Virus record (IMG/VR): IMGVR_UViG_3300044655_000021
Location: 1 to 22,949 of that record
Length of the DNA stretch: 22,949 bases
Strand: one strand, 5' to 3'
Source: a virus
Positions 4,320 through 10,447 of the stretch are shown here, piece by piece. Made by a program: the position numbers and the translations under genes. Under the pieces are notes generated by a model. The model was not told the DNA's origin. It worked only from the letters and a program-made list of their open reading frames with translations, and ran no database searches. Each line of letters starts with the position of its first letter. Positions within the stretch are counted from its first letter, which is position 1.

Positions 4320-5513
4320 ATGTCTGATATCGCAGAAATTAAATCCCTAGCGGAAACCCAAGGCACATTGCTGAATACCACTCGTGAACTAAAGTCATGG
4401 ATGGAAAAAGCTAATGGCGAAATCGCGGCTTCTAAAAATGTTGAAAACGAAACCAAATCCGCAATGGAAAAACTTAGCTCTAAAGCGGCTGAGTTGACCG
4501 AGAAGTGTTTGGAACTTGAGCGCAAAATGTCTGACTCTGCTAAAGAAGGTCAGAAGGCTGAAGATTCATTGGGTGAGCAACTGGTTAAGTCCGATGCTTT
4601 CCAAGCAATGACTCAAGGTCGTAGCAAGTTTGCTCGTATTGAAACCAAGACAGCAATCGTTAATGCTACTGGTCAGAACCAACCTTTGGTCGCTGACTTC
4701 CGAGTCCCAGGAATTATCAACAATCCGAATCGCGTTTTGACTATTCGTGATGTATTGCCTGTTGGTCGCACATCTTCTAACTTGGTTCAGTACACCAAAG
4801 AGAATGTGTTTACTAACAATGCAAACGCACAATACTCAAGCCCTGCGCGTGAGAATGTGACGAAGCCTGAGTCAGCAATTACATTCACATTGGCTAACGC
4901 CCCTGTGGTGACATTGGCTCACTTCATTCCTGTATCTCGTCAGGTGTTGGATGATGCTCCTCAATTGCAATCTTATGTCAATGGTCGTTTGACTTATGGC
5001 TTGAAATTGGAAGAAGAAGATCAGTTGTTGAATGGTCTTGGTACAAGCGGAACAATCGCGGGTATCACAGCATCAGGCAATCACACAGCATACAGCCGTC
5101 GTGTTACTGGTGACACTAAGTTGGATACATTGCGTCGTGCGATTACTCAGGCTCAATTGTCTGACTATATGCCTGACACAATTGTTATCAATCCTGCTGA
5201 TTGGGAAACAATCGAAATCGCTAAGACCACTTATGGTGAATACATCTTTGGCGGTGAGAATGGTCCTATCAACGCATTGCAACCATTGATTTGGGGCAAG
5301 CGCGTTATCGCTACAAACAGCATGACTGCGGGTAAGTTCTTGGTTGGTGGCTTCACTATGGGCGCACAAATCTGGGATCGCATGGATGCCGCTGTTCAAA
5401 TCTCCTATGAAGATGGCGACAACTTCAAGAAGAACATGGCGACATTGTTGGCAGAAGAGCGTTTGGCTTTGACAGTCTATCGCCCATCCGCTTTCATTTA
5501 CGGCAATCTGTAA
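4320..5513 (+). CDS. Major capsid protein (HK97 fold)
   Basis: The 397-aa protein forms the icosahedral shell. Residues 1 to about 95 form a charged, heptad-rich region (KSLAETQGTLL to LERKMSD) like the HK97 delta domain, which acts as internal scaffold and is removed by the protease encoded just upstream. The shell domain follows, with typical segments such as FRVPGIINNPNRVLTIRDVL, AHFIPVSRQVLDD and YEDGDNFKKNMATLLAEERL. Length fits PF05065 capsid proteins. AAAAGGAAA at 4307-4315 is a clear ribosome-binding site, strong for this window, as expected for an abundant product. A terminator follows at once. The exact cleavage site cannot be told by eye. Confidence 0.97.
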   Translation: MSDIAEIKSLAETQGTLLNTTRELKSWMEKANGEIAASKNVENETKSAMEKLSSKAAELTEKCLELERKMSDSAKEGQKAEDSLGEQLVKSDAFQAMTQGRSKFARIETKTAIVNATGQNQPLVADFRVPGIINNPNRVLTIRDVLPVGRTSSNLVQYTKENVFTNNANAQYSSPARENVTKPESAITFTLANAPVVTLAHFIPVSRQVLDDAPQLQSYVNGRLTYGLKLEEEDQLLNGLGTSGTIAGITASGNHTAYSRRVTGDTKLDTLRRAITQAQLSDYMPDTIVINPADWETIEIAKTTYGEYIFGGENGPINALQPLIWGKRVIATNSMTAGKFLVGGFTMGAQIWDRMDAAVQISYEDGDNFKKNMATLLAEERLALTVYRPSAFIYGNL

Positions 5514-5550: not shown

Positions 5551-5582
5551 GTAATTGTTAAACTAACTGAAATAACCCCGCG

Positions 5583-6065
5583 ATGGAATTAGTTGAAATA
5601 ATTGCCCTGACTCATTTTGAAGATTCACGCATTGGTAGCGTGAGTAATAAGATGAGACTAAAAGTTCCGTCAGTAGTTGCTGACGATCTTCAATCAATTG
5701 GTGTGATTGAAATAGTAAACCCTCAAGTGGCGACCGCCAGATCAGTTCATATGACCGCACCGCAGGTCGATGGGCGGGGCGTGTCGCCTGTATTATTGCA
5801 AGCGGACCGAGTCTCACCGAGGAAGATTGCAACATCGTTGGAGACCAAGGATGGGCGACCATCGCAGTCAATGACAGCTATCGCAGAGCACCATTCGCAG
5901 ACTGCTTATATGCTTGCGATGAACAATGGTGGCGAGTCCACTTTGAGCGAGTCAAATCAGAATACGAAGGAGAATGTTGGACTCAAGACGAGGGGGCGGC
6001 CAAGAGGTACAAAATCAACCGCATTGGGTCTGAGTACAAAGAGGGACTCGGCACTAATGGCGTAA
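5583..6065 (+). CDS. Unknown protein; only the N-terminal part looks like real coding
   Basis: This open frame of 160 codons starts with MELVEIIALTHFEDS and keeps protein-like composition for about the first 50 residues (KLKVPSVVADDLQ-like segment through IGVIEIVNPQV). That resembles short phage proteins of the head region that begin with a small beta domain, but I cannot name it. From about base 5765 onward another frame carries a clearly recognisable protein (see 5711-6364), so the last 100 codons here, rich in Ser, Thr and Lys, are probably an overprinted shadow. The likely cases are a short gene followed by a separate gene, or one fused gene split by a frame change. No clear ribosome site precedes the ATG. 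Confidence 0.5.
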   Translation: MELVEIIALTHFEDSRIGSVSNKMRLKVPSVVADDLQSIGVIEIVNPQVATARSVHMTAPQVDGRGVSPVLLQADRVSPRKIATSLETKDGRPSQSMTAIAEHHSQTAYMLAMNNGGESTLSESNQNTKENVGLKTRGRPRGTKSTALGLSTKRDSALMA

Positions 6066-6364
6066 TCCATCAGGGCGGTAATAGTGGTTATCAAGCGATC
6101 AATCTTGCTTACCTATGGGGGGCAAAGACAATTGTTCTGCTAGGATTGGATTGTTCGCTTTCACCAAAAGGCGAAGCGCATTGGTTTGGTCAGCATGGTG
6201 AAGGATTAACAAATCATCAACCATTCCAGATGTGGCAAGCTAAGTTTCCGCAACTTGCAGTTGATCTGCAAGCTGAAGGTGTTCGAGTAATTAACGCAAG
6301 CAGACAGACAGCCCTGACTTGCTTTGAGCGTATGACGCTTGAGGAAGCAATTAAAGTATGTTGA
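5711..6364 (+). CDS. GPSL-motif protein, DUF115 / sialyltransferase-like; start codon unclear or frameshifted
   Basis: Frame 2 is open from just after a TGA at 5708-5710 to a TGA at 6362-6364. From about 5765 it encodes RWAGRVACIIASGPSLTEED, then ATIAVNDSYRRAPFAD and LYACDEQWW, and later HQGGNSGYQAINLAYLWGAK and TIVLLGLDCSLSPKGEAHWF. An early G-P-S-L loop, a middle NSGxxA helix and a VLLGLD strand are the marks of the DUF115 (Maf) and GT42 sialyltransferase-like group of Rossmann-type enzymes that use or make sugar nucleotides. No ATG, GTG, TTG or CTG occurs in frame between the stop and the GPSL motif; the first TTG is at 6146, deep inside the fold. Translation therefore needs a -1 frame change from the 5583 frame, a rare ATC or ATT start, or a missing base in the sequence. 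The end overlaps the next gene by 7 bases. Confidence 0.75.
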   Translation, partial: NSKPSSGDRQISSYDRTAGRWAGRVACIIASGPSLTEEDCNIVGDQGWATIAVNDSYRRAPFADCLYACDEQWWRVHFERVKSEYEGECWTQDEGAAKRYKINRIGSEYKEGLGTNGVIHQGGNSGYQAINLAYLWGAKTIVLLGLDCSLSPKGEAHWFGQHGEGLTNHQPFQMWQAKFPQLAVDLQAEGVRVINASRQTALTCFERMTLEEAIKVC

Positions 6365-7077
6365 CCTTATTGACAGCTACTGGTGCAAGACCGAAGGCGT
6401 GGGCTATCTGCGAACTGTGGATGGCTCGGCAGACTTACAGAGGAGATGTTCGTTGGATTATTGTTGATGATGGTGAGGTTGCACAGCCAATCACATTCAG
6501 CAAAAAGAAATGGACATTAGAAGTAATCAGACCTAATCCATTCTGGCAAGAAGGTATGAATACGCAAGCGCGTAATCTTCGGGCGGGTATGGATGTTGTT
6601 GGTGCAGATGAAAGAGTTGTATTCATTGAGGATGACGATTGGTATGCGGCTGATTGGCTCGAGACAATTGATAAGAAGTTTGAGAAAGCTGAGTTAATTG
6701 GTGAGGCTAATGCTCGCTATTACAACTTGCCTCAGAAATCTTATCGACCAATGTTCAATACTTTGCACAGCAGTCTTTGCTCATCTGCTATTCGAGGTCA
6801 GGCATTAGATACATTCAGATCAGTATGCAGAGCGCAGATTAAATTTATTGATGTATTGCTATGGCAAGCGCATGGTGACAATCATTTGTTTAGTGGTGAT
6901 CGTGTTCTTGGTATCAAGGGCATGGAAGGTCGCGGTGGCATTGGAGTTGGTCACGCAAAAGAATTCCGTGGAACAAAGGATGTTGGCGGTAAAATTTTGA
7001 AATCGTGGATTGGTGATGATGCTTTGGTTTATAAGCCAGAGGAAAAATTAAATGACGCAATTAGTTCGGAAAATTAA
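6358..7077 (+). CDS. Glycosyltransferase family 2-like protein (GT-A)
   Basis: The 239-aa protein opens with a beta strand (LTLLTATGARP) and shows a nucleotide-binding WIIVDDGE segment at residues 33-40 and a metal-binding DXD-type motif in VVFIEDDDWYAADW at 87-100. An NTQARNLRAG helix lies between them. These features fit a small GT-A fold transferase that moves a sugar from a nucleotide donor. No membrane segment is visible, so it should be cytoplasmic. GAGGAAG at 6341-6347 serves as ribosome site, and the ATG overlaps the stop of the GPSL gene, so the two are coupled. The 3' end overlaps the connector gene by 26 bases. The acceptor cannot be told from sequence; a virion protein or host surface glycan are the candidates. 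Confidence 0.82.
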   Translation: MLTLLTATGARPKAWAICELWMARQTYRGDVRWIIVDDGEVAQPITFSKKKWTLEVIRPNPFWQEGMNTQARNLRAGMDVVGADERVVFIEDDDWYAADWLETIDKKFEKAELIGEANARYYNLPQKSYRPMFNTLHSSLCSSAIRGQALDTFRSVCRAQIKFIDVLLWQAHGDNHLFSGDRVLGIKGMEGRGGIGVGHAKEFRGTKDVGGKILKSWIGDDALVYKPEEKLNDAISSEN

Positions 7078-9478: not shown

Positions 9479-9525
9479 AGAATTGCCGTAAATGGCAACA
9501 CGCGCACCTACTCGGGTCAGTTCGC

Positions 9526-9583
9526 ATCCTTCGCGGGGTGCGGCTGATTCGAGCAAGGGCAATAACTCTCCCCGCGAAAGGAT
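9526..9583 (+). promoter_or_regulatory. Stem-loop that covers the ribosome site of the tail chaperone gene
   Basis: ATCCTTCGCGGGG at 9526-9538 pairs with CCCCGCGAAAGGAT at 9570-9583 with a single bulged A, giving 13 base pairs around a 31-base loop. The 3' arm contains AAAGGA (9577-9582), the best Shine-Dalgarno sequence for the ATG at 9591. No T run follows, so it is not a standard terminator. Folded RNA would hide the ribosome site and lower chaperone synthesis relative to the tube protein upstream. Confidence 0.65.
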
Positions 9584-9590
9584 TACTAAA

Positions 9591-9995
9591 ATGTTTGATA
9601 TCTCAGAACTAGCAGTTAAAGACACAGCCATCGTTGAATTGGAAACAGTTGAAGGCGATGCGTTGCTTGATGTAAATGGAAACCAACTTTCAATCACAGT
9701 CTATGGACCAGGCTCCAAGGCTTTTCAGAAGGCTCAAAGTATTCGCAACCGAGCGATTCTTGAGTATGTGAAGAAGGGTGGAAAGAAGATGAAGGAAGGC
9801 GAACAGCGCGAGCTTGATGCTGAGTTCTTATCTGCTTGCACAGTCAGCTTCAATGGCTTTGGCTATAAAGATTTCACAGGCGTTGAAATGTTTAAAGCCG
9901 CATATCTTGATTCAGCCATCGGCTTCATTACTGAACAAGTAAATAAAGCCGTTGGTGATTGGGCAAATTTTACTCAGGCATCATCGAAGACCTAA
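9591..9995 (+). CDS. Tail assembly chaperone, short form (lambda gpG-like)
   Basis: The 134-aa protein is predicted to coat the tape measure before the tube polymerises. It begins MFDISELAVKDTAIVELETV, continues with a GNQLSITVYGPGSKAFQKAQ beta segment and then a charged helix (YVKKGGKKMKEGEQRELDAE), like other siphovirus short chaperones. I chose ATG 9591 because AAAGGA lies 8 bases before it. An in-frame ATG at 9492 would add 33 residues rich in Arg and Ser with no good ribosome site. A slippery site near the end lets part of the ribosomes continue into the next frame. The TAA at 9993-9995 ends the short form. Confidence 0.85.
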   Translation: MFDISELAVKDTAIVELETVEGDALLDVNGNQLSITVYGPGSKAFQKAQSIRNRAILEYVKKGGKKMKEGEQRELDAEFLSACTVSFNGFGYKDFTGVEMFKAAYLDSAIGFITEQVNKAVGDWANFTQASSKT

Positions 9996-10447
9996 GTCTT
10001 TATGCGAGACAACTGGCTTGGTTCAGATCAATCCCAGTTGTCAAGCAAGAGAAATCGGTTGCATCAGGTGATAAGCAAGCTGAGTTAACACGCGCTGAGA
10101 AGATTCAGAAAAATGGCGGGAAGCCATTGATGCCTGATGTTGGTGATGCTGAATATGTGATAACCTATTGGCAAGATTTAGGCATGGTAGAAATGGGCGG
10201 GATGGGTTCAATACCATTGACCGCAAAAGAAATAATATCGTGGCAACAATGCACAGGCGTTGAGCTTACAGCTTGGGAATATAGAGCGATCAAACAAATG
10301 TCACAGGCATATTTGATGCAAGCTAAAGAGAGCGAAAAGCCAGAGTGCGAGCCGCCATTCGGTGATCCAATAAATGAGTTCGATAGAAATATCGTGAGCA
10401 AAAAAGTCGGCAATGCTTTCAAAGCATTCATTCAGGCAAAAAGGTAA
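9959..10447 (+). CDS. Tail assembly chaperone, frameshift extension (lambda gpT-like)
   Basis: This frame encodes the second domain of the chaperone and is probably made only as a fusion: 9591-9971 followed by 9971-10447, giving about 285 aa. The only independent start is a TTG at 9959 with no ribosome site, and the frame is closed just upstream. The extension begins YSGIIEDLSLYARQLAWFRS and has a central EYVITYWQDLGMVEMGGMG segment, then a helical LTAWEYRAIKQMSQAYLMQA region, which resembles the C-terminal chaperone parts that bind the tape measure. It ends three bases before the tape measure gene, the standard place for this gene pair in siphoviruses. Confidence 0.82.
   Translation: MGKFYSGIIEDLSLYARQLAWFRSIPVVKQEKSVASGDKQAELTRAEKIQKNGGKPLMPDVGDAEYVITYWQDLGMVEMGGMGSIPLTAKEIISWQQCTGVELTAWEYRAIKQMSQAYLMQAKESEKPECEPPFGDPINEFDRNIVSKKVGNAFKAFIQAKR
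9965..9971 (+). promoter_or_regulatory. -1 programmed frameshift site A_AAT_TTT
   Basis: In the frame of the short chaperone the codons are GCA AAT TTT ACT, so A_AAT_TTT fits the X_XXY_YYZ rule. Slipping back one base lets the ribosome read TAC TCA GGC and join VGDWANF to YSGIIEDLSL without a break. The long-form frame is closed by a TGA at 9956-9958, just before this site, leaving only a short overlap window in which the slippery heptamer falls. A small hairpin, AAGAC(9987-9991)/GTCTT(9996-10000), lies 15 bases downstream with the short-form stop in its loop. Confidence 0.82.

Follow-up and report, generated by a model that had tools for sequence, protein, structure and literature searches.

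A conserved overlap in tailed phages predicted to join a head-type domain to a glycosyltransferase-like domain by -1 ribosomal frameshifting

Overlapping reading frames downstream of a capsid gene

An enzyme-type domain encoded without a start codon of its own, close to the capsid gene of a tailed phage, is very probably translated by way of programmed -1 ribosomal frameshifting at a conserved site. Comparative sequence analysis supports the frame arrangement, the slippery site, a downstream stem, a switch in the frame under selection and dual coding, and from these features we infer the slip itself and its efficiency. The window, the whole 22,949-nucleotide stretch of viral DNA that was analysed, represents part of a tailed phage whose head is of HK97 type and carries terminase, portal, protease and capsid genes; the parts of the locus described below are on the + strand. 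The gene for the HK97-type major capsid protein (4320-5513) lies immediately 5' of the overlap locus, which is followed by a GT2-like gene (6358-7077, below the Pfam cut-off) that overlaps the enzyme stop, and then by connectors. Frame 2 is open from 5711 to a stop at 6362-6364 and encodes 217 residues including IIASGPSLTEED, NSGYQAINLAYLWGAK and TIVLLGLD, confirming the coherent GPSL-containing protein that the earlier note had described (open across 5711-6361). The ASGPSL motif of this frame starts at 5798, and none of the codons ATG, GTG, TTG and CTG occurs from the TGA at 5708-5710 to the GPSL codons, as had also been claimed.

The zero frame is represented by an ORF of 160 codons from ATG 5583 to 6065, delimited from the ORF list, the A9 alignment and an AF2 model, and a -1 slip from this frame enters the enzyme frame, in agreement with the previous suggestion that the two are joined by a -1 shift. 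Ribosomes would start at ATG 5583 and read a 46-codon domain (M1-N46, 5583-5720) that is common to both products and ends at the slip site. Most would presumably stay in frame to 6065, and their 160-aa product would end in a basic, AT-hook-like tail that is predicted to be disordered. At the heptamer A_AAC_CCT (5717-5723), which is in phase with ATG 5583 and is followed at a distance of 5 nt by a stem, some ribosomes would slip back by one base, from AAC CCT to AAA CCC, and continue in the -1 frame (coding part 5723-6364) to 6364. The product would be a 260-aa fusion (47 + 213) of the shared domain and the enzyme domain, the latter having no start of its own. No obvious Shine-Dalgarno sequence was found in the 14 bases before ATG 5583 (5569-5582); the position of this ATG is conserved among close relatives.

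Distribution among relatives and selection on the two frames

A scan for the enzyme returned 291 encoding stretches, the best 80 of which were kept and 79 analysed, one partial locus (L051) being left out. No ATG, GTG or TTG was present between the last stop and 30 codons past the start of the match in 73 of these 79 relatives (from the best 80 of 291), and the startless frame of the window is therefore not a chance feature. To these were added D3-like loci (the best 80 of 141 stretches), five loci from further viral scans with L070 and L080, only one of which (L172) came from a new contig, six loci from a scan of genome contigs and eight named phage records. The pool of 176 loci, in which some contigs occur twice, was reduced to 73 representatives at 90% DNA identity and divided by eye from the locus table into 61 of the frameshift type and 12 standalone loci with a start close before the enzyme or without an overlapping ORF (L058, L066, L067, L083, L084, L085, L087, L088, L089, L175, L177 and L178). 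Among the frameshift-type representatives, the enzyme frame is free of ATG, GTG and TTG ahead of GPSL in 57 of 61. Such a codon is present in the remaining four, GTG at -60 in L082 (phage D3) and at -105 in L157, and TTG at -423 in L027 and -399 in L074, only those of L082 and L157 falling within 120 nt. A zero-frame ATG at -215 is shared by 27 of the 61. Enzyme and upstream domain in a single frame were not noticed on inspection of the 73 representatives. Two of the standalone relatives, in Citrobacter phage phiNP (L084) and Cronobacter phage JK004 (L088), lie in stretches with almost no annotated CDS.

Matches also occur in bacterial genomes, 4 of the 399 genomes of the order of G001, G001 included, having one. 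Loci collected later from bacterial genomes, outside the 73, have the arrangement in three of three cases; their sites are one heptamer (GGGCCCT) and two C_CCT, and L188, one of the two loci without a heptamer, contains a TGA within its match and has GTG at -105. The Bradyrhizobium elkanii plasmid pUSDA31-2 (L184) carries an enzyme relative as a separately annotated CDS, in the vicinity of a phage portal gene and of a GT9 family gene. When zero-frame proteins were compared with the phage collection by tblastn, that of L167 gave no match and that of the window a single insignificant one (E 0.9).

Genes orf6.5 and orf7 of phage D3 are a case of the frameshift arrangement. In the deposited record the two overlap and the frameshift is unannotated; the deposited orf7 begins downstream of GPSL, which bears out the prediction that annotation can miss most of the enzyme. 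A decay mutation or a sequencing or assembly error, either of which would have split one fused gene recently, often produces such patterns in raw contigs and was among the options first listed. The probability of this is negligible here, given that the same arrangement occurs in 61 of 73 dereplicated relatives, including an isolate phage, and that conservation follows one frame before the site and the other after it.

Selection was assessed from nonsynonymous and synonymous codon differences among 17 close sequences. Upstream of the heptamer the nonsynonymous/synonymous ratio was 0.93 in the zero frame against 38.8 in the enzyme frame, whereas downstream of it ratios of 1.37, 1.11 and 1.18 were obtained in the enzyme frame against 5.4 to 6.8 in the zero frame. 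The ratios thus reverse at the heptamer, indicating that the frame under purifying selection switches there; relatives conserve frame 0 before the heptamer and frame 2 after it, rather than frame 0 in place of frame 2. A shift near 5763-5780, as previously placed, was rejected since purifying selection already acts in the -1 frame upstream of there, in the region from -74 to 0.

Initiation of the enzyme at a near-cognate codon of its own (ATC, ATT, ATA or CTG) within the overlap, coupled to the upstream ORF, is improbable on the same kind of comparison. Near-cognate starts occur in bacteria, the window has an ATC at 5741, and a near-cognate codon is present at -84, just before the heptamer, in 7 of 31 sequences. 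From -81 to -9 relative to ASGPSL, however, ATT, ATC, ATA or CTG is found in at most 4 of the 31 at any position and ATG, GTG or TTG in none; no standard or near-cognate start between heptamer and GPSL is common to these 31 sequences, and the ATC/ATT start envisaged earlier finds no counterpart in relatives. The commoner near-cognate codons at -6 (20/31) and -3 (13/31) come after residues that are already conserved in this frame (R -42, W -27 and G -21, each in 31/31), and initiation of this kind would leave conservation of the heptamer and the stem unexplained.

Slippery site and downstream RNA structure

The heptamer AAACCCT at 5717-5723, which includes the zero-frame codons AAC (5718-5720) and CCT (5721-5723), starts 6 nt past the last -1-frame stop (5708-5710). 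The earlier statement that no canonical X_XXY_YYZ heptamer is present holds within 5763-5780 but not for the region approximately 45 bases upstream, where this heptamer lies. Among the 61 frameshift-type representatives an in-phase heptamer occurs in 49, while the two remaining phases have 4 and 8, and codon-shuffled controls a mean of 10.3 (sd 2.8, maximum 20, 200 draws). The heptamers of the 49 comprise AAACCCN (25), CCCAAAN (11), CCCTTTN (6), GGGAAAA (3) and others (4). In the close family the heptamer is at -81 from ASGPSL, one subfamily having CCCAAA[CG] at the same spot, and 28 heptamer sites share this position. No Shine-Dalgarno-like stimulator was conserved in the 40 nt before the site in a simple 4-base motif scan of 31 sequences.

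A strict heptamer is absent from 12 of the 61, ten of which have a CCC in the -1 frame of the overlap (C_CCY-type sites); L086 and L077 have no assignable slip site. In L187 (-39 to -34 from GPSL) and in L166 a -1-frame stop, TGA, directly precedes the CCC codon, and a slip in the overlap can therefore enter only at or after CCC. The sequences of these lineages suggest that here a single Pro-tRNA slips.

RNAalifold analysis of 25 sequences gave a 9-bp stem 5 nt 3' of the heptamer, separated from it in the window by the spacer 5724-5728 and formed by 5729-5737 with 5779-5788, the 3' arm having one bulged base (5782). In these sequences 91.1% of cells are paired, two-sided changes are present in 8 of 9 pairs and the covariation score of the stem alone was reached by 0 of 500 shuffles. 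With the CCCAAA subfamily included (31 sequences) the corresponding values are 91.0% and 8 of 9, and the covariation score of both helices together was again reached by 0 of 500 shuffles. Shifting the partner by 1-3 columns reduced pairing to 28-50% in both the 25- and 31-sequence counts. The number of further pair types did not exceed that of shuffles (263/500 for 25 sequences, 286/500 for 31). For 59 assigned sites, consisting of 49 heptamers and 10 C_CCY codons positioned by hand, the score of a stem lying 4-9 nt downstream fell within the top 10% of control positions at 35 sites and within the top 25% at 49. Stems of different sequence occur in D3-like lineages, for example L155, L159, L160 and L169. 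Single-sequence folding energies of eight sequences were mostly unremarkable (z of -1.3 in the window, from -1.4 to +1.25 in six further sequences and -4.0 in L021), and RNAalifold did not return the stem from subfamily alignments A5 and A6, giving another hairpin for the D3-like A5 and another fold for A6. The stem presumably stimulates slipping. A second helix pairing a loop segment (5757-5767) with 5798-5808, the latter also coding for the start of ASGPSL, has 69.8% of cells paired and is suggestive of an H-type pseudoknot downstream of the heptamer, although it is weak in the window itself.

Transcriptional slippage, in which stuttering of RNA polymerase would yield a fused mRNA, could draw on the long A or T runs in the overlap of L054, L061, L031 and L176. 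The commonest sites, AAACCCN (25/49) and CCCAAAN (11/49), contain no more than short runs, and an RNA stem so spaced downstream of the site fits ribosomal slippage, making this a most unlikely explanation. The conserved heptamer, the stem and the frame switch support the unusual recoding event that the earlier note had named as one option.

Predicted products and related systems

The protein encoded by the -1 frame matched PHROG_4603, annotated as alpha-2,3-sialyltransferase, over residues 29-215 (E = 4.3e-47), while its best Pfam match, PF01973 (MptE-like), scored 27.2 bits, below the gathering cut-off of 34.6. An AF2 model of the enzyme domain (pLDDT 94.4) was aligned by VIA-align with the Maf glycosyltransferase 5mu5 (Z 15.6), the GT42 enzyme CstII (1ro7, Z 12.3) and MptE (8sd5, Z 10.9), identities being 11-17%. 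Foldseek matches were modest, the sole PDB chain at E up to 0.001 being the sialyltransferase ST8SiaIII (E 8.3e-4, TM 0.40). By predicted fold the domain thus belongs to the Maf/GT42/MptE-like (DUF115) superfamily, in keeping with the Rossmann-like enzyme of DUF115/GT42 kind expected from the sequence; a lack of any DUF115/GT42-type similarity, by which the earlier note would have been refuted, was not observed. In contrast to these structural relatives, the domain would here be joined by a frameshift to a head-type domain. GxS, NSG, GxD and HxxGxH motifs are invariant in the 50 sequences of the A2 alignment. In four loci (L078 and L170-L172) the -1-frame ORF extends approximately 500 codons beyond GPSL, the extension being weakly GT9-like in L078 and without a Pfam match in L170.

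Whether or not the frameshift operates, the -1-frame domain might instead be an MptE-like diphosphokinase or an inactive structural domain and no glycosyltransferase, a plausible but less likely reading. The best Pfam match is MptE-like, 8sd5 aligns at Z 10.9 and the Foldseek scores are modest; against this, Z is higher to the Maf glycosyltransferase and to CstII, the four motifs are invariant, and glycosyltransferase-like sequences occur among 10 downstream genes and extensions scanned (three GT2-like, one GT8-like and one GT9-like, mostly below Pfam cut-offs). Sugar (nonulosonate) transfer is a putative activity of the domain.

AlphaFold predicted a folded N-terminal domain for the zero-frame protein, with pLDDT of 90-94 in blocks covering residues 1-40 and 75 for residues 41-50, the last strand being 42-44, and low confidence from residue 50 onward. 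The slip codons are residues 46-47, where the folded domain ends, and the tail from residue 50 is read as disordered in the model. The best Foldseek match of the N-terminal domain was the C-terminal domain of lambda gpFI (2lsm, E 0.022), with 45 residues superposing at 1.3 A, 22% identity and Z 6.5, a value tied with those of other folds (GINS-type up to 7.5, ribosomal L9 at similar Z), so that the modelled resemblance to gpFI is weak. No gpFI family match was obtained in Pfam at E up to 1 for sets of 33 and 10 zero-frame proteins; Pfam gave DUF7210 and AT_hook below cut-offs and scattered marginal matches. AT_hook was matched at E up to 1 by 8 of 33 A9 members (best 0.019), the window's own protein matching nothing. 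The D3 protein gp6.5 belongs to PHROG_7993, and two other zero-frame proteins weakly match a head-tail connector PHROG. The ORF at 5583 directly follows the major capsid gene, as gpFI does, and an ORF of 214-438 aa lies upstream in 29 loci, not each of them typed as capsid.

The zero-frame tail of the window contains an AT-hook-like RGRP motif (5991-6002) within the dual-coded region. RGRP, KRGR or similar motifs were found in the zero-frame tail of 34 of the 61 representatives, whereas synonymous resampling of the enzyme codons gives an expectation of 0.9 (sd 0.92); the loci are related, and the 34 are not independent events. The position of the motif differs between lineages, and the tail as a whole shows no conservation at the amino-acid level among the 17 close sequences. 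The excess length of the zero-frame ORF was not compelling, being reached by 155 to 1048 of 3000 synonymous shuffles across nine loci, and the argument for a function of the tail is therefore carried by the motif test. Since the AT-hook-like motif exceeds expectation, at different places across lineages, the unshifted tail appears also to be functional, with the motif apparently selected.

As the N-terminal domain resembles the gpFI C-terminal domain and follows the capsid gene, it may bind the capsid lattice. The unshifted form, which would bind DNA through its basic tail, could then have a role resembling that of a packaging chaperone, and a glycosyltransferase would reach the head as part of the shifted form. 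This capsid-directed role of the shifted product is a tentative suggestion made by analogy. In its fullest form, equally speculative, a single capsid-binding domain would be made into two proteins in a set ratio by the conserved -1 frameshift, a gpFI-like AT-hook packaging chaperone and a head-targeted, capsid-decorating glycosyltransferase, with overprinted C-termini that are both selected and with the slip reduced in some lineages to a single Pro-tRNA step at C_CCY.

In the lambda gene order gpFI directly follows the major capsid gene. The position of the zero-frame ORF and the superposition with 2lsm are likenesses to gpFI, whereas the domain is here N-terminal, carries an AT-hook-like tail and a frameshift-added enzyme domain, and has no family-level sequence match. 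Binding of gpFI to the gpE lattice, and its proposed action through non-specific DNA binding, are described in PMC4856287.

Phage frameshifts are known mainly from tail chaperone and capsid genes. In lambda-like phages the tail assembly chaperone gpG/gpGT is made by a heptamer slip in the structural cluster. As predicted here, a -1 slip at a heptamer yields a C-terminally different product within a structural gene cluster; the present gene, in contrast, follows the capsid gene, has a covarying stem 5 nt downstream, would add an enzyme-type part on slipping and has a dual-coded unshifted tail. Frameshifting in phage tail chaperones is treated in PMC10885494, which also cites, as does PMC5009743, work on the -1 frameshift of the phage A2 head protein; PMC9024508 cites work on PSA structural proteins with a +1 frameshift. 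The A2 and PSA cases share with the present one a frameshift in phage structural genes, whereas the shift predicted here lies outside the major capsid gene and would add a catalytic-type domain. Phage P1 PmgO has a homologous enzyme domain (35.5% identity) but starts at an ATG of its own, in a locus where the frame that would feed a -1 slip is closed; standalone homologues of the enzyme, P1 PmgO and others, are thus already known. Literature searches covering open-access papers showed no description of this frameshift.

If correct, this is a conserved frameshift by which a head-type protein acquires an enzyme-type domain, selection acting on both of the alternative tails; annotation splits and truncates its product in the isolate phage D3. 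Whether an enzyme carried by a capsid-binding domain glycosylates phage heads becomes testable, and the loci provide a natural series of slippery sites (AAACCC, CCCAAA, GGGAAA, CCCTTT and C_CCY) with matching stems for studies of frameshift mechanics. Elsewhere in the window an ORF at 9492-9995 is overlapped by a -1-frame ORF at 9959-10447 that matches Phage_TAC_18, and a correctly phased AAATTTT lies at 9965; this pair is likely, from its sequence, to represent a tail assembly chaperone -1 frameshift.
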